Shown: piece after piece, positions 11,087-28,734 of the stretch | How positions within the stretch are numbered: the stretch's first letter is position 1 | Layout: every line of letters starts with the position of its first letter | Assembly: GCA_016181405.1 (NCBI GenBank) | Contig: JACOZJ010000002.1 | Location: forward strand, 202,608-239,509 | From: Candidatus Wildermuthbacteria bacterium | Lineage (GTDB): Bacteria > Patescibacteriota > Minisyncoccia > Minisyncoccales > UBA10102 | Length of the DNA stretch: 36,902 nucleotides | Direction of reading: 5' to 3' | Notes under the pieces: model-generated | The model's database searches: none | Told to the model about the DNA's origin: nothing | Seen by the model: only the letters and a program-made list of their open reading frames with translations | Made by a program: the position numbers and the translations under genes

Positions 11087-11261
11087 AAAATGTAATAAGT
11101 AGTATATATTAACTTTACTGTTATTGGGATTGGGGATTTGTGGAAAAACAGTATTTCTGCCTTTTTTTGTGTACTTTTTGCCTTTGTTGATTGTGGATAA
11201 AAAGGGGATGCAGAGGAGGGCAAAAAAGAGGACGGTCACAGCCCCCTATCTCTCCCCTTCT
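11087..11261. other. candidate replication origin segment (dnaA-dnaN intergenic)
   Basis: Perfect DnaA box tgtggataa (11192-11200), variant tgtggaaaa (11139-11147), ttatccact (11262-11270), AT-rich stretch 11087-11127. Confidence 0.6.
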
Positions 11262-12617
11262 TTATCCACTATATATCCTCTGTTTTATTAGGTTGATTTC
11301 ATCTAGAAGAATTTCAGATTCTTGAAGTTCCTTCCCTATTTTTTCACAAGCATAGATAGCTGTGGTATGGTCTTTCCCCCCAAATCTTTTCCCAATCAAA
11401 GGGTAAGAGCTCTTTAGCTCTTCGCGCAGTAAATACATTGCGATTTGGCGAGGCCTTACCACTTCTTTTTTTCGAGAAAGAGCGCAGAGTTCTTTCTCTT
11501 TTAAGTCGTAAAACTCCGCAACCATTTGGATGATTTTTTTATGACTTACCACTTTGTTGGGGTTTTGGATGACGCTGTGCAAGAGCGTGCGAGCTTCTTG
11601 AAGCGCAGGCATTTTCTTATTAAGCCTATAAAAAGCAAAAAGTCGATTGAGGGCACCTTCTAATTCTCTGATGTTTCTTTGAATGTGTGCCGCAACATAC
11701 TCACATACATCATCTGGGAGTGTCATGCCATGTTCTGCAATTTTTGTTTTCAAAATGGCCAAGCGCGACTCAAAATCGGGGTTGCCAATGTCGGCAATCA
11801 TGCCTCCCTCAAAACGCGAGCGAAGGCGCTCTTCAAGAGCGGGGATTGATTTTGGGGGACGGTCAGAAGAAAAAATAATTTGTTTGCCGTGTTCGTATAA
11901 AACGTTAAACGTGTGGAAAAGCTCTTCTTGAGTTTTGTCCTTCCCTGCGAGAAATTGAATGTCGTCTATAATGAGGATATCGAGATCTCGGTATAGGGAG
12001 CGGAAGTTGTCCATTGTATGATTGCGAATTGCAGAAACCACGCCGGTGGTGAACCGTTCAGATGACATATAGCGAATGCGCTTTTCAGGAAAATCTTTGC
12101 CGATTTGCGTGCCTATTGCTTGCAAAAGGTGGGTTTTTCCAAGGCCTACCCCCCCATACACAAAAAAAGGATTATAAACGGAACCAGGATTCTTACAAAT
12201 AGCAAGGGAGGCGGCGTGGGCCAATTCGTTAAACGGCCCTACAACAAATACATCAAACGTATATTTTGAATTGAGGTTGGTTGATCGATCAACCCTAAGT
12301 TCTTCAAGCTCAAGCTGGGAATCAGTAGAAATACTAGGGGCTGGGCGTACAGGGGGTTGTTTGGGTTGTGCGGGCGCCCCGACCGTGTACTGAAGCTCCC
12401 GTATTTCACTGTCGATTCCGCGAATCAGGTGGAAAATGAGCTTATTATATTTATTCTCAAGCCACTCTTTTGAGAAATTATTTGGTACGGATATAAGAAG
12501 TTGCCCATCTCTTTTTGAAAGGATGTAGGTATTTTTGAGCCAAGTGGCAAAGTTTGCAGGCGAGATTTGAAATTGGAGTTGCGCAAGCACGGCTTGCCAA
12601 AGCTCTTCGTTACTCAT
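11262..12617 (-). CDS. dnaA: chromosomal replication initiator DnaA
   Basis: NPFFVYGGVGLGKTHLLQAIG, DILIIDDIQFLAGKDKTQEELFHTFN, C-terminal RQIAMYLLREELKSSYPLIGKRFGGKDHTTAIYAC. ATG at 12617 preferred over GTG at 12623 because an extended -10 (TGCTATAAT) lies 7 nt upstream. Confidence 0.96.
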   Translation of the reverse strand: MSNEELWQAVLAQLQFQISPANFATWLKNTYILSKRDGQLLISVPNNFSKEWLENKYNKLIFHLIRGIDSEIRELQYTVGAPAQPKQPPVRPAPSISTDSQLELEELRVDRSTNLNSKYTFDVFVVGPFNELAHAASLAICKNPGSVYNPFFVYGGVGLGKTHLLQAIGTQIGKDFPEKRIRYMSSERFTTGVVSAIRNHTMDNFRSLYRDLDILIIDDIQFLAGKDKTQEELFHTFNVLYEHGKQIIFSSDRPPKSIPALEERLRSRFEGGMIADIGNPDFESRLAILKTKIAEHGMTLPDDVCEYVAAHIQRNIRELEGALNRLFAFYRLNKKMPALQEARTLLHSVIQNPNKVVSHKKIIQMVAEFYDLKEKELCALSRKKEVVRPRQIAMYLLREELKSSYPLIGKRFGGKDHTTAIYACEKIGKELQESEILLDEINLIKQRIYSG

Positions 12618-12685
12618 AGGCACTATTATAGCATACCAACAAAAGTGAAGAAGTAAACCTAAAAAGAGTTCGTTTGTTGATAACT

Positions 12686-14935: not shown

Positions 14936-16807
14936 TTAAAGATTATCGGATTGATTATTGGGGGTTTGCGCAGATTCGTCGGTTTTCCGTACGCCAAATT
15001 CGGGCTCTCCTTGCTTGCGCTCGCGCGCCTGCCGACGCGCAATTTCTTCTGGAGCTGTCGTAATCATTTCGTGCTCCGCTGGGGAAGCCACCACTTTAAT
15101 TGCCACGTGTTTTTGCCCCGCGAAAAAGATGCCTTCTCCCACGTCGGTTTCAAGCAAAAGGTTTTTCTCTTCGGAGGTCAGGGCAAATGCTTTTTGCACC
15201 GTTTCAATGGATGCCGGCGACTGCTTCATTAAAAGTTGAAGCGATGAGTTGGTGATAATAGGTTTGCCGTATTCAGAGCGCATAAAGTCATCCACGTCCT
15301 GCGTAATGGTGGTTACGCCCAGCCAGTATTTACGCGCGCGCTTTACGATGCCAAACAAGAACGATGCTCCGTCTTCGGTCTGCATAATCCACCACGCTTC
15401 ATCCAGAACAAAGATGCGCTTTTTGAGTTCAGAACGCACCGTATTCCAAATATGGCGCATAACAATATAAATCGCCATGGGGCGTAAGCTGTCTTCCATT
15501 TCGCGAATGCCGAAAGAAACAATGTTTCGGTTCAACGAGATGTTGCTCGGCTGGTTAAAAAAGTTGGCGTAGGTGCCGGTCGTGAATTTTTGCAGGCGCC
15601 GCACCAGAGAATCGGTGCCTTCCATAGTCCGCAACACTGACTCTAAATCCTCCATGAGGGGGATTTTGTCTTTCCAGGTGGAAGGGTGGCTTGTAGGCGT
15701 AATATCTTTGGCGGCGTACGTTTCTGTAATAGCACGGTCCATGATGGCGTCTTCTTCCGGGGTTAGGCCGCCCAAAGCAATGCGCATCAACCCTACTAGA
15801 TTAATTACGTTGGAGCGCAGGATATCGTCAGTCCGTTCGTCTTCCCGTGGCTGGGGGAGGTCGAATGGATTGATATGATTGTCTGATCCCAGGGAAATAT
15901 CAAAAAAACTGCCGCCCGCGGTTTCAGCCAGCGTCTTATATTCGTTTTCCGGGTCAAGAACAATTACGTCTACCCCCCACATTAGATAGCGCAGGATTTC
16001 CAGTTTGACGGCGTACGATTTTCCAGATCCCGACGTTGCGAATATGGTGGAGTTCGCGTTCTCCAGAGAAAAGCGGTCGAATAAGATCAAAGAATTGTTG
16101 TGGCGGTTTATGCCGTACATAATTCCTTCGCTTGAACTCAAGTCAAACGATACAAAAGGAAATACCGAAGACAAGGGCTCGGTGTTCATGGAATTATGTA
16201 CCTGCAGAAGATCAAGCCCATAAGGAAGGCATGAGTGAAAGCCTTCTTTCTGCTGGTACAGGGCTGGCTTCACATACATTAAGCGCGATTCAAAGATGGA
16301 GCGAAGCGTCGTTTGAATTTCCCGCAACTCTTCTACAGTTTTTGCGTACACGGTGATATACAGGGCAAAGCGAAACATGCGCTCTTGCGCTGTCTGGAGC
16401 CGATCGCGGAGAGCTTCCATGTCCTGAAACGCGGTTTCCAGTTCTGGATTGCGGACGAGGCCTTTTGCCTCTTCGTCCATAATTTCAGACTGTACTTCGG
16501 TAACTCTCCTGCGCAGTTTTTTTAGAATGTAGCCAGTGTCGACAGGATGCATGAACAAAGAAATGTCCATGGCAATGTCGAGATTAATGGCGCTGGAAAG
16601 CCACGCGGTGCTCAAATAGCGGGGATATGAAAAAATGAAAAACGATTTTACCAATCTGTTCCCAAGCAGAATGTTTTCTTGTTTTACGCTAATGGAGGAG
16701 GGCGCGATAATATCTTTTTCCGTAATAGGCCGGGTTTCAAAAATCTGTTCCCGGGTCGGAATTTCCTCTCGCTTTGCTGTTTTAAGAAATGGTAAGGATA
16801 GTTTCAT
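14936..16807 (-). CDS. VirB4/TraC-like type IV secretion ATPase
   Basis: FATSGSGKSYAVKLEILRYL (Walker A), VIVLDPENEYKTLAE, RIFVLDEAWWIMQTEDGASFL (Walker B), TITQDVDDFM. Confidence 0.92.
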   Translation of the reverse strand: MKLSLPFLKTAKREEIPTREQIFETRPITEKDIIAPSSISVKQENILLGNRLVKSFFIFSYPRYLSTAWLSSAINLDIAMDISLFMHPVDTGYILKKLRRRVTEVQSEIMDEEAKGLVRNPELETAFQDMEALRDRLQTAQERMFRFALYITVYAKTVEELREIQTTLRSIFESRLMYVKPALYQQKEGFHSCLPYGLDLLQVHNSMNTEPLSSVFPFVSFDLSSSEGIMYGINRHNNSLILFDRFSLENANSTIFATSGSGKSYAVKLEILRYLMWGVDVIVLDPENEYKTLAETAGGSFFDISLGSDNHINPFDLPQPREDERTDDILRSNVINLVGLMRIALGGLTPEEDAIMDRAITETYAAKDITPTSHPSTWKDKIPLMEDLESVLRTMEGTDSLVRRLQKFTTGTYANFFNQPSNISLNRNIVSFGIREMEDSLRPMAIYIVMRHIWNTVRSELKKRIFVLDEAWWIMQTEDGASFLFGIVKRARKYWLGVTTITQDVDDFMRSEYGKPIITNSSLQLLMKQSPASIETVQKAFALTSEEKNLLLETDVGEGIFFAGQKHVAIKVVASPAEHEMITTAPEEIARRQARERKQGEPEFGVRKTDESAQTPNNQSDNL

Positions 16808-16820
16808 GAAATCGCTCGGT

Positions 16821-17492
16821 TTATAGTTCGGCCGTTTTCTTGGTTTGCTTCAAAAGCTCCGGAGGCACTTCAGGATAATATCCCACTTCTGCTTCCTCGG
16901 GATGATACCAAGTCCACAGCAATTCCACCAACTCCTCGGAACTCAAGGGTGCCACATGAAGGCCCATTCTGCGCAGGCCCAAAGCCACAAACTCCATTCT
17001 CTGCCAAAGCTGGGTTTTCATGCGGTCAAACTCCTCGTCGGTAAGCTTGCCGATTACTTTTGGTTTTGTCTTGAAAAGCTTTGGGCTTAGTTCTCCACCG
17101 GGGAGCGCTTCCAAAAGCGCGAACGGCACTACCACAAAAAAGTTTTTCGCCAGTATGGAGCCGCCCTCAATTAAGCTTTCCACAAACTTGCGATATTCCG
17201 CTGTTTGTATTTTAAGAAGTTCGTTGGTTTGTCCCTGCTCCAATTCCTTAAGCCGATCGATATAACCGGTAATGTTCAATTTTCGCGATTGTATAACTAC
17301 CTGCAAAGAAAAATCGAGCGAGTTTAAAAAGCTTTGAAATTGAAAGATAATAGCGTCCTGCTCTTCTTCGGATTTTAACGCAAAGTTCGCAGAAGAAACC
17401 AAAAGAAGGCCTCGGATGGAGCGGTTTTGCAACACAATGGTTCCCTCTCTAATTTCTTCAAATTCCAAAAAATCTTGCGTTGAGCTTGCCAT
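16821..17492 (-). CDS. TraC-like / VirB4-associated conserved protein
   Basis: FLEFEEIREGTIVLQNRSIRGLLLVSSANFALKSEEEQDAIIFQFQSFLNSLDFSLQVVIQSRKLNITGYI; between VirB4 and PrgI as in other CPR T4SS-like loci. Confidence 0.75.
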   Translation of the reverse strand: MASSTQDFLEFEEIREGTIVLQNRSIRGLLLVSSANFALKSEEEQDAIIFQFQSFLNSLDFSLQVVIQSRKLNITGYIDRLKELEQGQTNELLKIQTAEYRKFVESLIEGGSILAKNFFVVVPFALLEALPGGELSPKLFKTKPKVIGKLTDEEFDRMKTQLWQRMEFVALGLRRMGLHVAPLSSEELVELLWTWYHPEEAEVGYYPEVPPELLKQTKKTAEL

Positions 17493-17510: not shown

Positions 17511-17930
17511 TTATTTCTTAGTTTGAACCTTTACAGCCAAATCGGCTACGCGGCTTTTCCGGACCAGCTCTGCTTTTTGCAGGCCTTCCCCGTTGGTGCG
17601 CGGATTTACATATTCCTCTTTCTTAAAATGCAATTTGGTATTCCCTCGCTCCCACACAAACATTTTTGGTTTTGCCATAAAAAACAGGACGTTCACAATG
17701 AGCTGGGGAAAGGTTCTTCCTTCCACTGTGCCAAAAGCGAGCATGATGCCCGCCCCCTCCAAAAGAATAGCTAGCAGGACAAATAAAATAAAATAGTCAG
17801 CCGCGATGGCAAACCAAAGCACGAAATTGATCATAAGCGGCACGCCAACATATGCCGCCCGCTTAAATGTAAGCGGACCGATTATTTTCGCTTCCCGCTC
17901 AATAAATTGTGGAGTTTGAAATTGTGCCAT
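17511..17930 (-). CDS. PrgI family protein
   Basis: MAQFQTPQFIEREAKIIGPLTFKRAAYVGVPLMINFVLW..., two TM segments, KPKMFVWERG. Confidence 0.8.
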   Translation of the reverse strand: MAQFQTPQFIEREAKIIGPLTFKRAAYVGVPLMINFVLWFAIAADYFILFVLLAILLEGAGIMLAFGTVEGRTFPQLIVNVLFFMAKPKMFVWERGNTKLHFKKEEYVNPRTNGEGLQKAELVRKSRVADLAVKVQTKK

Positions 17931-18460
17931 TATTCGGTCGGTTCCCTATACGTATCCGATCCCTTTTGCTCTTCTGTGAAAATCTCTTTTTTCTTTTTTC
18001 TTTTTTCTTTTTGCGCTTGGCTCGGCTCTTCTTCTACTATGTATCCGTTTGCGGTTTCCGGAGTTTCGCGGGCTGCCAGTTCGTCTGAATGCCTTGGCGT
18101 AGCTACCCCAACTTCTTGTGGAACCCCCGTTTCTCCTGGCTTCGCGTGAAGCTGTTCCAACTGCTGCTTTACCGGATAGAAGATAAATCTGTTTACTTCT
18201 TGGGTAATCCGTTGGGCAGTATCGGTGTCCAGCCCCATTTCTTTCATCAGCGCCGCCTCAAAGTTGCGCGGCAGCATTACGCCCATTAACACGAGCCCGA
18301 TAAGAGAGGCGACTTTGGGGCATTCGTTGATTCCGTACCTTTCGCAGATGGAAAAGGTATGGTCGGCGTTTTCAGCGGAAAATACCGCCTGCTTTAACTC
18401 TTCAGGCAGTTTTTCATATATCTTCCACATTTCTTCTTGGTCGTATTGGGGTGTGGGCAT
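17930..18460 (-). CDS. hypothetical protein of the T4SS-like locus
   Basis: 176-aa ORF overlapping PrgI by 1 nt, same strand. Confidence 0.7.
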   Translation of the reverse strand: MPTPQYDQEEMWKIYEKLPEELKQAVFSAENADHTFSICERYGINECPKVASLIGLVLMGVMLPRNFEAALMKEMGLDTDTAQRITQEVNRFIFYPVKQQLEQLHAKPGETGVPQEVGVATPRHSDELAARETPETANGYIVEEEPSQAQKEKRKKKKEIFTEEQKGSDTYREPTE

Positions 18461-19955: not shown

Positions 19956-22427
19956 TCATGGCTTAGGTTTAAGCTTTGATTGGGCTTTCTCGGTTTCTTC
20001 CCATAGCTCGCGTATCTCTGGATCAGGATCAAGCATCATTTTATCCTTTAAGTTTCCTAGCATCTGATTAAATTGTGCCTGCATGGCTTGCAGAGCTGCT
20101 TGTTGGGTTGGAGTACGCGCAGATACCGGATAACTTTCTAGGTCCGCAACCTTTTGTTCTAGTGCCATAACTTTTTGTAGTTCTTGGTATGCGCCTGGGA
20201 CAGGAGCCTTTTTACCATACTGTCCTGCCCACAGATTCGCTATTCTGCTACGTTTGCTTACGTCATCTGTACTTTCCGCGCCTTCTTTCGGGGCTATCCC
20301 AAGGCCTTGCGCGCTCGAGCTTACTTCATAGCGAGCCATAGCTATGTTTCTGGGTTTGCCAGTTTCCTTGTCGATACCAAAATACCAATCACCCTTTTTC
20401 TTGTTTTGCTCCAGCGAATTAATGAATTCTCTGCCAAACTCTCTTGCGGCTTGATCTACCTGATTGCCCTTCCAGAATTTATGCGCAGCTTCCATAAGTT
20501 GTTTGTCTTTCCACCATCCTTTCTGAAGTTGCTTAATGTCTCCTGCGCTTGTGGCGTCAGTCACCACTTTTGCTCCATAATTCCCAGTAAGGCCGCGGCC
20601 TGTCCCTCCTGCGCGTACTGCCTGCACATCCGCCTTCAAATTATCAAATTCTTTTTTACTGATGAGCCCACGTTCCACATCTTCTTCACTGTAGCCGCCG
20701 TATGTTCTATCTTTAGGATCAATAGCATTTTGGCTTACGCGATCTTTGATATCAGCAAATCTATCAGACCACAACTCTTCGCGTTCCTCATAGTCGATGT
20801 CGCCAGTAGTGGGGTCTATTATGAGGTTGCCCTCATCATCTCTTTTGGCAGAGCGCACTTTTTTGCCGCTTCCTGTTTTTGCCGCCACAAAACCTCGGTC
20901 AATTGCGTCTTGCAAATCCGAATTTCCTCTTTCTTCTGCATAGAGGCGTGCTTTCATAATTTCATCTGGCTTCAGCACGTTTCCCTTCCCACCCATTGCG
21001 TCAGCATTCATCATGGTGCGAAGCTTCCCTTCCGCGGCAGCAACCGAAAGAATAGCTGCTCTGTCGGACTCGCTTCCCGCCTGCCGCAAGTCGTGCATAA
21101 GGCCAACAGCATCCTTGCCGCGCGCTTTCTGGCGGATTTTTTCTTCTCTTTCTTTCTCTTTTTCAACGACAACATTTTGTGCTACTCCATACGCCGTGCG
21201 TCTTCCGTACCCGGCTATGCCGCCAAATCCTCGAGCCACAGCCGATCCAAAGCCCTTGCTTTTCGCCCCAGTCGTCTTGTCATAACCCCATCGCGGACTT
21301 TCGGAAACAGCCCCTTTTTCTATAGTACTGCGAACTTTTTTGCTTTCAGCGGCGCGCATAATTGCCTGCGCGGCAAGAAAACCAGCGCCAATGGTGGCTG
21401 CCTTTTTCGCGAATCGGCCAATCGATCGCATCGGGCCGCCGAACGCGGTGAGAGTGAGCCCCGCAAACAACAGGAAAAGCGCCAGGAACGGGCTTATAAA
21501 CGCAACAATAGGATTTGATTCCACGCGGCTGAATGCGGGGTCAAATGCGCTGCCCGCGCTGTTTACAAGGGTAAACCCCGCAAGATAGAGAAAAAACCCA
21601 ATAGGAACCGGAATAAAAGCCCAATGCAGAAGGGTACTCAACCAACGATTCCAGTAGCTTCTTGTGGCCGGCAGAATGGATGCAGCGAATGCGAGAGGAG
21701 CAAGTATTGCCAGCGTCCACAAAACAAACGTGCGCGTAAACATAAGGGCAATGAACGCGAAGTATATGAATATGGCAATGATATAGTAGAGAAGAATGCC
21801 GAGGGAGCTTGCGACAATTTGTGCGAGGCCAGAACCAGTTATTCCGGAAGCGCCCGGCCACGGCACTGCCCACGAAACTTTGCTGACCGCGCCAAAGAAA
21901 AAATTCGCGATAATGTTTGCTATATCAACAACAAGACCAACCAAAATGCCGCTGAAGTTCACCAAAAGGGCTACGATAATAAGCCGGGGAAGGGTGCGTT
22001 GAATCTCGTATTCCCTGAAACGGAGAATCGTGGCAAGGCCGATGAATACGAGAATGAGAAGAAGTATTGCGTTCACAAAAGAACGGGATAGTTCCCAGCC
22101 CTCCGTAACTACCGGCGTAATGCCGGGTGCGCCCGGCGCAACAGGTATAGAGAGCATATTTCGCACCACCCACTGGAGAACAGAAGCAACCCCTCCGTAG
22201 ATAAATTCTGCTGCTTCGGCGAGAACGGTAGCAACAACTTTTACGATGCCTGCGGCAATGGCGATGCCCATGCACGCAAAATCAGTTGGAGAGCAGTCGG
22301 TAACGCCGCCGATAAGCGCTAGCACTACAGCAGAGCCTATGCCCAATCCGACAAGGACAAGTAAGGGAATGAGTCCGCTTTCGCTCGTGTGATATTCATG
22401 CGCTTTTGAAAAACAACCAGAATGCAT
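19956..22427 (-). CDS. VirB6/TrbL-like polytopic membrane protein
   Basis: Multiple TM helices, VNFSGILVGLVVDIANIIANFFF, LWTLAILAPLAFAASILPATRSYWNRWLSTLLHWAFIPVPIGFFLYLAG; long soluble C-terminus; start MHSGCFSKAHEYHTSESG with -10 TATAAT 6 nt upstream. Confidence 0.82.
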   Translation of the reverse strand: MHSGCFSKAHEYHTSESGLIPLLVLVGLGIGSAVVLALIGGVTDCSPTDFACMGIAIAAGIVKVVATVLAEAAEFIYGGVASVLQWVVRNMLSIPVAPGAPGITPVVTEGWELSRSFVNAILLLILVFIGLATILRFREYEIQRTLPRLIIVALLVNFSGILVGLVVDIANIIANFFFGAVSKVSWAVPWPGASGITGSGLAQIVASSLGILLYYIIAIFIYFAFIALMFTRTFVLWTLAILAPLAFAASILPATRSYWNRWLSTLLHWAFIPVPIGFFLYLAGFTLVNSAGSAFDPAFSRVESNPIVAFISPFLALFLLFAGLTLTAFGGPMRSIGRFAKKAATIGAGFLAAQAIMRAAESKKVRSTIEKGAVSESPRWGYDKTTGAKSKGFGSAVARGFGGIAGYGRRTAYGVAQNVVVEKEKEREEKIRQKARGKDAVGLMHDLRQAGSESDRAAILSVAAAEGKLRTMMNADAMGGKGNVLKPDEIMKARLYAEERGNSDLQDAIDRGFVAAKTGSGKKVRSAKRDDEGNLIIDPTTGDIDYEEREELWSDRFADIKDRVSQNAIDPKDRTYGGYSEEDVERGLISKKEFDNLKADVQAVRAGGTGRGLTGNYGAKVVTDATSAGDIKQLQKGWWKDKQLMEAAHKFWKGNQVDQAAREFGREFINSLEQNKKKGDWYFGIDKETGKPRNIAMARYEVSSSAQGLGIAPKEGAESTDDVSKRSRIANLWAGQYGKKAPVPGAYQELQKVMALEQKVADLESYPVSARTPTQQAALQAMQAQFNQMLGNLKDKMMLDPDPEIRELWEETEKAQSKLKPKP

Positions 22428-22490
22428 TATGATATTATAGTATAATGCTTTTAGGTTGTACAAATTTTTCCACAAGGATATAATAAAACA

Positions 22491-23618
22491 ATGCTCAAGA
22501 AAATTTTTCTTGCCCTACTCCTTGTCGCAATTGTTGTTCCAGTTTTCGCGTTTGCGCAAGTCAAACTGAATCTTAGCTATCCCAACTTTGGGCCGTTTAA
22601 CCCGGCAACCAACCAAAGCCTTGGCGCAATCATCGGCTATTTGTATTATTTGATTGTGGGCATTGCGGGCCTTGCCGCTTTTGTGATGCTGATATGGGGA
22701 GGGGTGCAGTGGTTGGTTTCCGGAGCTATACCGAGCCAGGCAAGCGAAGCAAGAGACAAGGTGCGCAACGCGATCATTGGTTTGCTGCTAGTGCTGGCCT
22801 CTTTTTTGATTGCGCAGACGATTAATCCAGCGCTCACCATTATAAACATGGATTTTTTGAGCCTTGGAGACCGCACTAGTTACGGCAGATGGCTTTTTGG
22901 CGGATCAAATACTCCCTATCGTTGCGAATATGTGAAGGGTGAAGATAAGTTTTATAAATGTGAAGGTACCCTCCCTAAGGGAAAGCCAGGTTCAAGCGGG
23001 TCAGGAGAACAGTGCGTTGAGATACCGGGCGCATATGATCCTGTTGGTCTCTGCACCGTAAGCTGCACCGCAGCTTTAGGATCTGACGGAGAAAAGGCAG
23101 AGGTGACTGTGGCCGGGAAAAAAACTATGTACTGTTGTTATGAGAAAAAGTTAGATACCTGTCGCTACGATGGGAAAGACTATCCTTTGGCTCAAACAAT
23201 CGATTCTCCTCCCATCTCTCTCAACTATGCGGTTATGAAAACACGGTTCGGGGTTTATGGATGTGATGATGACGGCTGCTTAAAAGCATGGAGATGGTTT
23301 TACTCCGACACTCCTGATGTAGAGAATAGCCCCATTATGGATTCTTCTCCCAAAGGAGATACGATCGAAGGACAAATAGGATCTCTTTGGATTAACGGGC
23401 CTTTCATTGCGGTCTTGTATGAGCATGAAAATTATGCTGGGAAGAGAATTTGTTTTGACGCGCGAAACCAAACTCTTTATCCTTCTCCTCCGGGGCTATT
23501 GATTAGTCGTCTCGATGATTATGATGGGTGGGGGAACGAAACTGATAGCATTAGAATCTTGCAAGATGGAAATTCGGAAATCGACACTGTGTGTCCATAC
23601 TTTCAGGTAACGCTCTAG
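22491..23618 (+). CDS. VirB2-like protein (signal peptide + 2 TM) with C-terminal Cys-rich and beta/gamma-crystallin-like domain
   Basis: MLKKIFLALLLVAIVVPVFAFAQ..., GYLYYLIVGIAGLAAFVMLIWGGVQWLVSG...DKVRNAIIGLLLVLASFLIAQTINP; C-term FIAVLYEHENYAGKRICFDARNQTLYPSPPGLLISRLDDYDGWGNETDSIRIL. Confidence 0.8.
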   Translation: MLKKIFLALLLVAIVVPVFAFAQVKLNLSYPNFGPFNPATNQSLGAIIGYLYYLIVGIAGLAAFVMLIWGGVQWLVSGAIPSQASEARDKVRNAIIGLLLVLASFLIAQTINPALTIINMDFLSLGDRTSYGRWLFGGSNTPYRCEYVKGEDKFYKCEGTLPKGKPGSSGSGEQCVEIPGAYDPVGLCTVSCTAALGSDGEKAEVTVAGKKTMYCCYEKKLDTCRYDGKDYPLAQTIDSPPISLNYAVMKTRFGVYGCDDDGCLKAWRWFYSDTPDVENSPIMDSSPKGDTIEGQIGSLWINGPFIAVLYEHENYAGKRICFDARNQTLYPSPPGLLISRLDDYDGWGNETDSIRILQDGNSEIDTVCPYFQVTL

Positions 23619-23703: not shown

Positions 23704-24450
23704 CTACTCTGTGTGGATTCCGACGATTCTCCACACAGAGTCTGTCTGCTTAAGAAGAAGGGAGGGATCGTGCAGAAGCTTGCTTTTGTTTGTCGTGTAT
23801 ATATCGCGCGCAATCCACAGACTCTCCGCGTCTGCGATCTGCGCTGGAGAGTGGGCAAGCCTTTCAACCGAGAGTCGCTTCCCTCGTGAGAAGTGAAAGG
23901 CTCCTTGTTCAAAAACGAGCCCGTCGACACCGCGCCATTCAGGAGCCATTCGCTCAAGCTCCTGTTGGATTCGCGCGGTTTCTACCACATCTGCTTCTAC
24001 GAGTTTCATTGCTTCATCGATACGACCTCGAGCTGCGAGAAGGATGAAGGAGGCAACGATTTGGCCGCCGTCTGTCATCTCCCCGGGCTTTCCTGGTTTG
24101 GTGTAAATGCCAAGGGTGATGCCATTGCCCGGAATAGGCGCTGCGCCAAATTGTGGGATGGGTGTTGGACCAGGTGTTACGATCACTACTGGCAGTGGTG
24201 CGGCTGCGTTTGCTGCCGGATTCTGTGCAATGATCGGGGTTGGTTCAGGTGCTTTCGCGGGCGGTACGTTGGCGCCTTTTGCGCCGAGCACGAAGCCGAG
24301 TGCAAGTGCAATTGCCACTGCCGCGATGAGGATCGCCGCTATGGCGATTGCCATCCATGGCAAGCGGCGCGGCTCTCCATGAGACACCGGAATCTGGGAT
24401 TCCTGATGCTGGGGTAGAGGTACTGGGGCTTGTAGGGATTTCTGTGTCAT
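23704..24450 (-). CDS. single-TM protein with Pro-rich linker and NTF2-like C-terminal domain
   Basis: TM PWMAIAIAAILIAAVAIALALGFVLG; VVIVTPGPTPIPQFGAAPIPGNGITLGIYTKPGKPGEMTDGGQIVASFILLAARGRIDEAMKL; terminal DSVWRIVGIHTE; SD AAGGAGG. Paralogous to 25109-26104. Confidence 0.8.
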   Translation of the reverse strand: MTQKSLQAPVPLPQHQESQIPVSHGEPRRLPWMAIAIAAILIAAVAIALALGFVLGAKGANVPPAKAPEPTPIIAQNPAANAAAPLPVVIVTPGPTPIPQFGAAPIPGNGITLGIYTKPGKPGEMTDGGQIVASFILLAARGRIDEAMKLVEADVVETARIQQELERMAPEWRGVDGLVFEQGAFHFSRGKRLSVERLAHSPAQIADAESLWIARDIYTTNKSKLLHDPSLLLKQTDSVWRIVGIHTE

Positions 24451-25108: not shown

Positions 25109-26104
25109 CTAACAGGGAGCGAGTTTTGTGATGTTTCCATCCGCCACTTCTACACACACGCGTGCAATCGCTGCGTTTAGTAGAAGGGATATATTGTAAA
25201 GGGCCTCCTTGGGTTCCTGTCTGGCCTCCATGATTGTGATGGCATCCCCACGAGAGAGGAGTCGTCCGGACTTTGTCTCGAAGTGTGCCCTCCACTTTTC
25301 TCGATCTGCGACGGGCGCAAATATAACAGCTTCGTCAATTCTTCCACTTGCCGCTAGGAAGTAGATCGCAGCGATTCTTTCCACCACCAGCTTGGGGTTT
25401 GTGGGTATGCTGTTAAAAGTGAGAAGGGTTCTCTCATCGTAACGGTAGCCGGAGAATGGAATGATCTTCGGCGGTTCGGGGTAGTAGATACGCCAGGGTT
25501 CAAGCCCTGATTTGGAGAGGCCGAATCCGTTTAGTGAGTCGTCTTCCGTGCGCCGGTCCACAAGGCGGACAGCGTTTCCGGTGTCCAGATCGTATACATC
25601 GTCGTAAAATACGGCGGACCCGGGGTACGGGCGCCGCGCTGCGCTGAAGCTTCTGATCTCTACGCCCTTCTTGAATGCGTTGGGGTAACGTTCTCGAAGC
25701 AGTTTTGCTTGCCGAACGAGCGTTTCAGAGGAGATAGTAAGCTTGAGCGCTTCGTCTATACGGCCGCTGCTGGCGAGAAGGATGAAGGAGGCGGCGATTT
25801 GACCGCCATCTGTCATTTCTTCCGGCTTCCCCGGCTTGGTGTAAATGCCGAGCGTAATTTCATTGCCCGGAATAGGCGCTGCGCCAAATTGAGGGACGGG
25901 TGTGGGCCCGGGTGTTACTATTACCACTGGCACCGGTGAGACTTGACCGGAAGTCTGCCCTTGGCTTGGGGTGGAAGGAAGCGAAGCCGGGGGTGCGCCG
26001 GGCTTGATGATTGCGATAGTCACCAGTACGGTTGCAACCACGATTGCCAAGACGGTAACTCCGCCTACCAAGAAGGCATTTCGAGTCGTTTTGTTCTGTA
26101 GCAT
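25109..26104 (-). CDS. single-TM protein with two putative NTF2-like domains (VirB8/TcpC-like by architecture)
   Basis: TM AFLVGGVTVLAIVVATVLVTIAII; VVIVTPGPTPVPQFGAAPIPGNEITLGIYTKPGKPEEMTDGGQIAASFILLASSGRIDEALKL; second unit ERIAAIYFLAASGRIDEAVIFAPV; start MLQNKTTRN with SD aaggaaggggg. Confidence 0.78.
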   Translation of the reverse strand: MLQNKTTRNAFLVGGVTVLAIVVATVLVTIAIIKPGAPPASLPSTPSQGQTSGQVSPVPVVIVTPGPTPVPQFGAAPIPGNEITLGIYTKPGKPEEMTDGGQIAASFILLASSGRIDEALKLTISSETLVRQAKLLRERYPNAFKKGVEIRSFSAARRPYPGSAVFYDDVYDLDTGNAVRLVDRRTEDDSLNGFGLSKSGLEPWRIYYPEPPKIIPFSGYRYDERTLLTFNSIPTNPKLVVERIAAIYFLAASGRIDEAVIFAPVADREKWRAHFETKSGRLLSRGDAITIMEARQEPKEALYNISLLLNAAIARVCVEVADGNITKLAPC

Positions 26105-26178
26105 CGGAGACCCCCTTCCTTTAATTCCGCATTCAGAGAGTGGGCGCAACGCAAATGTAGGTTCTGGGAACTATCGTG

Positions 26179-26254: not shown

Positions 26255-26686
26255 TTAAAATTCGTACCAGCGGCCAAAAATGCTTATGTTAAATTCAAAA
26301 ATGCCCAGGAGAAAATTGAGAAACAGCCAGGAGAAAAGTAGAATGAGTACTCCCTTGATTACCGCTGCCCAGATGCTTCGTACTTTGGCGAGAACTTCCG
26401 GGCCGCCAAACTGAAAGAAAAAGATGGCTCCTGTGGCAACCACGAGTATAACAATAATGAGCGGTGTGAGCTTCCAGAGCACGAAGGTGAGTAGGGTTTG
26501 CAGGAGTAAGAAGAGATGTTGAGACCCGCATGGATTGGTTTCGTTCCAAGGGGTTTCGGGGTTATCCCGATCTACCCCACAAGGCACCAGGCCATAGGGC
26601 GTTTGGGCATCAGCTAAAGATGGTATTGCCGCGATAAGAAGAATTCCGACTGCAAAGAAAAGAAACAGAAGAGATAAACGAGTCAT
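26255..26686 (-). CDS. VirB2/TrbC-like small membrane protein
   Basis: Signal peptide LLFLFFAVGILLIAAIPSLADAQ, C..DRDNPETPWNETNPC, TM LTPLIIVILVVATGAIFFFQFGGPEVLAKVRSIWAAVIKGVLILLFSWLFLNFLLG. Confidence 0.75.
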   Translation of the reverse strand: MTRLSLLFLFFAVGILLIAAIPSLADAQTPYGLVPCGVDRDNPETPWNETNPCGSQHLFLLLQTLLTFVLWKLTPLIIVILVVATGAIFFFQFGGPEVLAKVRSIWAAVIKGVLILLFSWLFLNFLLGIFEFNISIFGRWYEF

Positions 26687-26693
26687 TGCTTTA

Positions 26694-27545
26694 TTATAGA
26701 GTGTTTGTGAGGTTTATCCAATCTTGGATTGAGAGAGTTTCTGCTCGCCGGGCAGGCTGCACGGTATTTTGTAAAAGCCATTGTTCTGCTTTTGCGCGGG
26801 GGAGGGCAAGTTCTTTTGACAAATTATTCACAAGTTGCTTTCTGGGCTGCTTAAATCCCGCTTTTACCACTGTGAAAAACTTGGGGAAATCTATGGAATA
26901 AGGCTGGGGGAAAGGTGTGATTTTCAGAATGGCAGCATCTACTTTTGGCTTGGGCCAGAATGCCGTTTTTTTGATATAGGAAATGATTTCTGGCGTTGCG
27001 TACACTTGTACTGATGCAGCAAGAATACTCATTTTTGGCGGTTTTGCGCAAATGCGCTGGGCTACTTCTTTCTGCACAATAAGCGTTAGCGATTCAGGCT
27101 GCTGGTCACTTTCCAGAAACTTCCTTATAGCCGGCGCGGTTATGTAGTAGGGTAGGTTGGCAACGACTTTGTATGCTTTTGGAATTTGAAACTTGGGATT
27201 TCCTTGAGTTTTGAGCCTTGAGTCTTGAATATTTGCTTTCAGGGCGTCCCCGTGGATTATCTCTATATTCTTGAATCCAGAGAGAGTTTCTCTGAGTATC
27301 TCTACCATTTTTTTGTCTTTTTCAACAGCGATAACTTTTCTTGCCGCCAGAGCGAGCTCTTGGGTTAAAGTGCCAATTCCGGGCCCAATTTCTAAAATGG
27401 TGTCGTTGGACTGGATAGCAGAGGTGGCCACAAGTTTCTTGACGGTCCCCCGGTTAATTAGAAAGTTCTGGCCGAACCCTTTGCTGGGCCGGATGCCGTG
27501 TTTTAAGAGTATTTCTTTAACAAGACGAAGAGAAGTAAGGTTCAT
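26694..27545 (-). CDS. rsmA: 16S rRNA (adenine1518/1519-N6)-dimethyltransferase
   Basis: SKGFGQNFLINRGTVKKLV, ILEIGPGIGTLTQELALAARKVIAVEKD, VVANLPYYITAPAIRKFLE. Confidence 0.95.
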   Translation of the reverse strand: MNLTSLRLVKEILLKHGIRPSKGFGQNFLINRGTVKKLVATSAIQSNDTILEIGPGIGTLTQELALAARKVIAVEKDKKMVEILRETLSGFKNIEIIHGDALKANIQDSRLKTQGNPKFQIPKAYKVVANLPYYITAPAIRKFLESDQQPESLTLIVQKEVAQRICAKPPKMSILAASVQVYATPEIISYIKKTAFWPKPKVDAAILKITPFPQPYSIDFPKFFTVVKAGFKQPRKQLVNNLSKELALPRAKAEQWLLQNTVQPARRAETLSIQDWINLTNTL

Positions 27546-27675: not shown

Positions 27676-28734
27676 ATGAGGAAACGGGACGACGAAATCT
27701 CGAGTCAGCGTAGAGCACGAACACCTCTTTTGTACGTAGCTCTGGGAGCTATTTTTTTGTTGGCTGTAACTGGAATAAGCTTAAAAGCGCTAGCGAGTAC
27801 CCCTGGGGTTCAAGTAAATATGTTGCTTTTGGCACAGACTTCTCAGGGAGGAAACGGGCAGCTTCCCTTACAAGTTCGGCCGGCTTCTGTCGTAGCATTT
27901 GAAGCTCCAGAACTCGTTTTGCTCGACAAAACGAGCGTGAGGGCCATAACTCCTCCCCAGAACCTAAGCGCGAGTGTGCTGGGAGCTCTTATTGGCGACT
28001 CTTCGACCGATTCAGGAAGCAGCCGGGAGGTTCAACATTATGTGGTAGAAAAAGGCGATACAATTGCTTCTTTGGCAGAGCGCTTTGGCATTTCAGCCGA
28101 CACAATTATATGGGCAAACAATTTAAACTCCTCTTCCCAGCTCACTCCGGAAGAGGAGTTGCTCATCTTACCTACCTCGGGAGCCCTGCACTTGGTGCGG
28201 CCGGGTGATACTCTAAGCGAGATTGCTGTGTGGTATAAGGGCGATATAGATGAGATTCTGTACTTTAACGAAATAACTGACGCAAAAGATATTTTCGTGG
28301 GAGATCTTCTCATTATTCCGGGAGGAATCAAGCCTGCGCAACTTCCTGCGGGCCGGCTTACGCAATTGGCAGGAGGGTACTTTATGATGCCAGTGCCGCG
28401 CTCTTATAAGATTACGCAGGGATTGCATCCGTTTAACGCAATTGACTTTGCAAATGGTTCTTGTGGAGGACCGGCGTATGCGGCGGCTGGCGGACTTGTG
28501 CAGAGAGTGGGGTACGACGGCGTAGCCGGCAATTATGTGCGGATTATGCACGACAACGGCGTGGTTACGCTCTACGGCCATCTTTCAGGGCAAACCGTGA
28601 GCTCGGGAGAAAGAGTCGGACGAGGCCAGATTGTAGGTTACATTGGCTATTCAGGATATACGATCCCCTCGGGACCACGCGGCTGCCATCTTCACTTTGA
28701 AGTTCGTGGCGCAACCAACCCATTTCTAAAATAG
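27676..28734 (+). CDS. LysM-domain M23 family metallopeptidase
   Basis: HYVVEKGDTIASLAERFGISADTIIWANNL and HLVRPGDTLSEIAVWYKGDIDEILYFNEI (LysM), GNYVRIMHDNGVVTLYGHLS...GYIGYSGYTIPSGPRGCHLHFEVR (M23). Confidence 0.93.
   Translation: MRKRDDEISSQRRARTPLLYVALGAIFLLAVTGISLKALASTPGVQVNMLLLAQTSQGGNGQLPLQVRPASVVAFEAPELVLLDKTSVRAITPPQNLSASVLGALIGDSSTDSGSSREVQHYVVEKGDTIASLAERFGISADTIIWANNLNSSSQLTPEEELLILPTSGALHLVRPGDTLSEIAVWYKGDIDEILYFNEITDAKDIFVGDLLIIPGGIKPAQLPAGRLTQLAGGYFMMPVPRSYKITQGLHPFNAIDFANGSCGGPAYAAAGGLVQRVGYDGVAGNYVRIMHDNGVVTLYGHLSGQTVSSGERVGRGQIVGYIGYSGYTIPSGPRGCHLHFEVRGATNPFLK

Follow-up and report, generated by a model that had tools for sequence, protein, structure and literature searches.

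A T4SS pilin with a C-terminal beta/gamma-crystallin domain in Candidatus Wildermuthbacteria

The VirB2-like pilins described for the Patescibacteria, which are recognised by the Pfam model PF18895 and treated as small, have a signal peptide and two transmembrane helices and are located near virB4 and dnaA. The T4SS genes of this phylum often lie near dnaA and ksgA, most of the clusters are devoid of a relaxase, and a PrgB-type adhesin was not found in the T4SS of Patescibacteria (PMC12102498). The same paper cites an essential VirB2-like pilin array in Ca. S. epibionticum, and its main text contains neither the word "crystallin" nor a mention of a crystallin-type exodomain. In one Saccharibacterium, the sole species tested, the T4SS was essential for epibiotic growth (PMC12857230, PMC11665869). 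Microbial beta/gamma-crystallins such as protein S, clostrillin and spherulin 3a (PF00030/PF03995) are double Greek keys with an SxxI motif, and the crystallin domain of the Vibrio cholerae adhesin RbmC binds mucin (PMC10903470). No publication on crystallin-tailed T4SS pilins was found in the open-licence literature on crystallins, Patescibacteria/CPR/Parcubacteria, secretion systems and pilins.

The window analysed here, a stretch of 36,902 nucleotides from a Candidatus Wildermuthbacteria genome, contains a gene that encodes a T4SS pilin with a C-terminal beta/gamma-crystallin domain. Its product resembles the described pilins in the signal peptide, the two transmembrane helices, the location by virB4 and dnaA and the matching Pfam model; in contrast to those small proteins, it has an exodomain of 265 C-terminal residues that includes a crystallin fold, and such genes often stand in tandem. 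The gene and its parts are as follows:

22491..23618, plus strand: crystallin-tailed T4SS pilin gene, 375 aa (open reading frame and PF18895; same architecture in the nearest relative, L002)
22491..22556, plus strand: Sec-type signal peptide, residues 1-22, with KK, a hydrophobic core and AFA before Q (sequence read by eye)
22611..22820, plus strand: T4SS_pilin domain PF18895, residues 41-110, two transmembrane helices with the polar loop GAIPSQASEARDKVRN between them (E=6e-11)
22902..23231, plus strand: Cys-rich linker, residues 138-247, 8 Cys (comparison with the congener)
23247..23402, plus strand: Greek key 1, residues 253-304, FGVYGCDDDGC...GSLWINGP (profile and model)
23403..23564, plus strand: Greek key 2, residues 305-358, AVLYEHENYAGKRICF...DSIRILQ (profile, model and Foldseek)

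This anatomy, a T4SS pilin fused to a crystallin tail, is in itself very nearly certain. The open reading frame at 22491-23618 and the tail sequence quoted in the original prediction were both present as described, and the VirB2-like N-terminus assigned there was borne out by the signal peptide, the two transmembrane helices and a PF18895 match of 42.7 bits, above the curated cut-off of 26.6. A full-length AlphaFold model calculated from a mixed alignment was poor (pLDDT 46); it placed a helix at the signal peptide (2-21) and the two pilin helices at 44-79 and 81-111, and the fold of the tail was judged from a model of the tail alone. Twelve cysteines are located C-terminal of the pilin part and the source genome encodes two VKOR proteins, which is consistent with disulfide bonding of an outer tail without establishing it.

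Since a profile search with PF00030 gave no significant match anywhere in the source genome, including the window protein, the tail is a divergent crystallin, and its assignment required independent proof. The peptidase inhibitor family I36 (PF03995) did not match the window tail, and a phmmer search of the PDB with the tail alone returned no match, so that a profile was needed. A five-domain profile of relatives, from which the window and congener proteins had been left out, found the tail at 1e-10, with every other of the 250 window ORFs at E>1, and this rules out a chance resemblance. At 7e-7, the tail was also retrieved by a profile of three domains, taken from L033 (one) and L032 (two), proteins that PF00030 itself had picked out. 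The 203-aa relative L033 combines in one chain matches to PF00030 (29.4 bits, cut-off 25), I36 (39.4 bits, cut-off 21.1) and T4SS_pilin (48.2 bits, cut-off 26.6), and the VirB6/TrbL protein L032 matches I36 above the cut-off (30.7 bits) and PF00030 just below it (24.7 bits). When searched against the PDB, the profile A5, built from 30 related crystallin domains without pilin residues, met protein S at 1e-14, followed by clostrillin, spherulin 3a and vertebrate gamma-crystallins.

The double Greek-key fold that had been expected of the tail was obtained by structure prediction: AlphaFold modelled residues 248-375 with the A5 alignment of relatives at a pLDDT of 84.7 and a pTM of 0.81, and all 19 Foldseek matches of this model in the PDB at E<=0.001 were beta/gamma-crystallins. 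The stretch originally quoted corresponds to Greek key 2, and the extent had to be redrawn, as the domain is a complete double Greek key at about residues 253-358, with FGVYGCDDDGC...IGSLWI as Greek key 1. Both the YxG and the SxxI positions are present in the tail, the YxG being degenerate in Greek key 1, and residues S298, G317 and S353 fall on the nearly invariant A5 columns S51, G70 and S106. Fold and profile match are thus shared with the microbial crystallins, from which the window tail differs by its fusion to a pilin, a long insert before the first SxxI and a score below the PF00030 cut-off, the Ca2+ motif being mostly lost. The canonical motif [ND][ND]xx[ST]S occurs in 12 of 55 related crystallin domains and is missing from the window protein, where GNETDS comes nearest to it. 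Judging from the sequence, the Ca2+ binding originally suggested is not supported, and the window protein gives no grounds for claiming it.

Conservation of the fusion, a further expectation, was found in a second genome of the genus and across the order. The nearest relative, likewise named Ca. Wildermuthbacteria in GenBank, encodes the same fusion with 68% identity and no internal stop. Residues 1-137 of the pilin part are 92% identical in the two congeners (97% in the transmembrane region) and the crystallin part is 74% identical, as against only about 25% for the linker at residues 138-247. Because dN is about 0.17 and dS about 0.78 in the crystallin part, the tail is under purifying selection, and between the two congeners the linker that joins the domains changes very fast. 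With the uninterrupted congener copy and the selection on the tail, a fusion created by misassembly is therefore ruled out. The linker (22902-23231), evolving faster than both flanking domains, is a possible site of partner-specific change.

The pilin gene lies in a T4SS region with the following features:

11259..12623, minus strand: dnaA, a landmark adjoining the T4SS cluster (also in 14 of 20 related regions)
14936..16807, minus strand: VirB4-type ATPase with TraG P-loop (in at least 14 of 20 related regions)
16821..17492, minus strand: conserved 223-aa T4SS-cluster gene adjoining virB4 (no significant Pfam match; syntenic with virB4 in relatives)
17511..17930, minus strand: PrgI/VirB3-like gene, weak (PF12666 at E 0.06 only; syntenic in relatives)
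17930..18460, minus strand: conserved 176-aa T4SS-cluster gene (no Pfam match; several relatives have it close to virB4 or virB6)
19956..22475, minus strand: polytopic protein of the VirB6/TrbL type, oriented divergently to the adjoining pilin gene, with an uncertain start codon (weak PF04610)
26255..26686, minus strand: second, untailed pilin-like protein (PF18895 at E 3.6 only)
26694-27545: KsgA-like gene (by eye)
27676..28734, plus strand: protein with LysM and peptidase M23 domains, a candidate for a wall hydrolase of the VirB1 type (Pfam)

A virB6 profile, the seed of which includes the window virB6, retrieved VirB6 proteins beside pilins in relatives, and homologues of the second pilin-like protein were found in the genomes G006 and G015, some of them inside long open frames. 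In 20 larger regions of 14-20 kb from the order, VirB4 or VirB6 was present in 19, the remaining region being at a contig end; the linkage became apparent in such larger regions, as VirB6 was seen in only 7 of 47 loci with short flanks. The layout of the window and the counts from the 20 regions fit the published pattern of T4SS clusters linked to dnaA and ksgA (PMC12102498).

Across the order, the A5 profile detected the crystallin domain in 118 of 247 genomes, in 72 of 148 genera and in 87 of 178 good-quality genomes; the nine-domain profile A2 found it in 32 of the 247, and PF00030 alone gave nine weak matches only, some in loci without such a protein (L036, L039, L040). One hit region each from 40 further genomes yielded 67 crystallin ORFs, of which 58 had a pilin domain and the other nine were truncated where the contig or locus ended. 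Among the 1313 ORFs of the 20 larger regions, 31 were crystallin-positive and no reversed decoy passed 1e-3; 29 of these were pilins, one was a VirB6 and one was cut. Thus every complete crystallin ORF examined in the order was fused to a T4SS pilin, with the exception of one VirB6. The pilin domain may be N- or C-terminal relative to the crystallin, and in many clusters tailed pilins stand in tandem as pairs or triplets, accompanied by another pilin whose long tail does not register as crystallin (frames of 424-1315 aa). The pilin subfamily profile A6 matched in 211 of 243 genomes sampled, most of the matches listed lying in open frames of more than 200 aa.

Within the family, 24 of 25 genomes had a pilin match. 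Crystallin-type tails were found at L001, L002, L013, L016, L018 and L020, tails without a convincing Pfam match at L003, L010 and L014, and untailed pilins at L004, L005, L008, L009, L011, L012, L015 and L017, and one T4SS pilin bears a peptidase M23 tail (L006:985-1911, minus strand, 7e-24), that is, a pilin carrying a wall hydrolase. The exceptional VirB6 (L032, the same as L196:7474-10626, minus strand) has a signal peptide and two N-terminal crystallin domains, and the pilin of its genome is untailed. In two genomes of the class outside the order (L076, L077), large secreted proteins of a third kind bear crystallin domains and are encoded immediately upstream of virB6, so that the crystallin module has three attachment points in one machine: the pilin, VirB6 and a neighbour of VirB6. 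One other family of the class, designated f75, does have crystallin proteins outside the T4SS (L079, L081, L097, L100), and the exclusive association with pilins is therefore limited to the order and does not extend to all relatives. No relatives turned up in viral contigs or phage records.

The explanation that we favour, mechanism included and with a slight lean rather than strong conviction, is that of a contact-making T4SS subunit with an outward crystallin tail. In VirB2 pilins both ends are outside and the loop is inside; therefore, the tail should be exposed. A Sec-exported VirB2-like pilin would span the membrane or pilus with two helices and keep its short loop inside, and the C-terminal 265 residues, first the fast-changing Cys-rich linker and then the double Greek key, would face outward. 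The pilin part would anchor or assemble the subunit at the VirB4/VirB6 machine, and the crystallin module on the surface of the apparatus would make or stabilise the contact with the envelope of a partner cell, a job that belongs to the VirB5 pilus-tip protein or the PrgB adhesin in other T4SSs, the likeness being one of analogy only. We infer this topology and exposure, the assembly into a pilus or its tip and the binding of a host ligand, perhaps a glycan. Since it is questionable whether every subunit of a pilus could bear so bulky a tail, the tailed pilin might be a minor component, sit at the tip or have no place in a pilus at all.

Our preference for a contact-making subunit follows from the precedent of RbmC, the essentiality of the T4SS in the species tested and the failure to find PrgB-type adhesins in the phylum. 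RbmC, too, is located at the surface and employs a crystallin domain in adhesion; it differs in that it belongs to the biofilm matrix, contains beta-propeller and beta-prism domains and is not part of a T4SS. Counting against this preference, crystallin domains have further roles, those of stable spacer, protease inhibitor and Ca2+ protein. In addition, no crystallin domain was detectable in 18 of the 25 genomes of the family and in about half of the order, and the tail is therefore not indispensable. Considering location, conservation and precedent, host attachment by the tailed pilin is plausible, and the protein is a good candidate for the host-touching part in these tiny, probably host-dependent bacteria. 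A tailed pilin with a recognised soluble fold is a concrete protein for asking what the T4SS of the Patescibacteria touches, and where pilins are surveyed by their small domain only, most of the mass of the tailed proteins escapes notice.

A broader reading, which we put forward tentatively and as possible rather than probable, is that the T4SS pilin of the order is a display scaffold whose exchangeable outer modules choose the host that is contacted or breached. The modules found on the conserved two-helix pilin include crystallin Greek keys, peptidase M23 and other domains, and the crystallin also occurs on VirB6. If this holds, the scaffold would be the missing recognition layer in the T4SS of obligate epibionts.

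The diversity of the tails could also mean that the pilin domain is a reused two-helix membrane anchor and that the proteins bearing tails are surface proteins of an ordinary kind, not necessarily T4SS parts. An array beside gyrA in the same genome, on a contig other than that of virB4, indeed contains pilin-domain proteins whose long exodomains are N- or C-terminal. We consider this unlikely in view of the tight linkage to virB4/virB6 in 19 of 20 regions, the strong conservation of the pilin, with 97% in the transmembrane region versus 25% in the linker, and the presence of the same crystallin module on VirB6 itself. A role of the tail as a protective or structural cap, a stable spacer or protease inhibitor and not a ligand binder, would agree with the missing canonical Ca2+ motif and with the Pfam scores of L033 and L032, where PF03995, itself a crystallin-type fold, is the strongest of the crystallin-type matches (39 and 31 bits, respectively). 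The window tail, however, is not matched by I36, and a fast linker and swapped tails accord more with recognition of a partner than with an unvarying cap, which renders this role improbable. That the tail aids the T4SS in cis, by nucleating assembly or sealing the channel like VirB5 on VirB6 and with no host contact, is very doubtful, as some pilins of the same family are untailed and a tail is thus not needed for assembly in general, although VirB6 and proteins encoded beside it do bear crystallin modules, and in the R388 system VirB6 is where VirB5 docks (PMC12857230).

Two neighbouring membrane-anchored proteins in the T4SS region of the window (23704-24450 and 25109-26149, minus strand) belong to no Pfam family and represent a partial duplication; they share the near-identical stretch VVIVTPGPTPxPQFGAAPIPGN...LGIYTKPGKPxEMTDGGQIxASFILLAxxGRIDEAxKL, and their remainders differ. 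Elsewhere in the source genome (L176, contig C1, 48500-56500), five pilin-domain proteins are arrayed beside gyrA, two of which, in frames of 799 and 348 aa, have a long outer portion at the N-terminus, and the larger of these contains repeated Ig/PKD-like stretches as seen by eye. At L177:778-2613 (minus strand), a 612-aa frame of the same genome consists of a pilin domain, an Ig-like stretch and a further domain.
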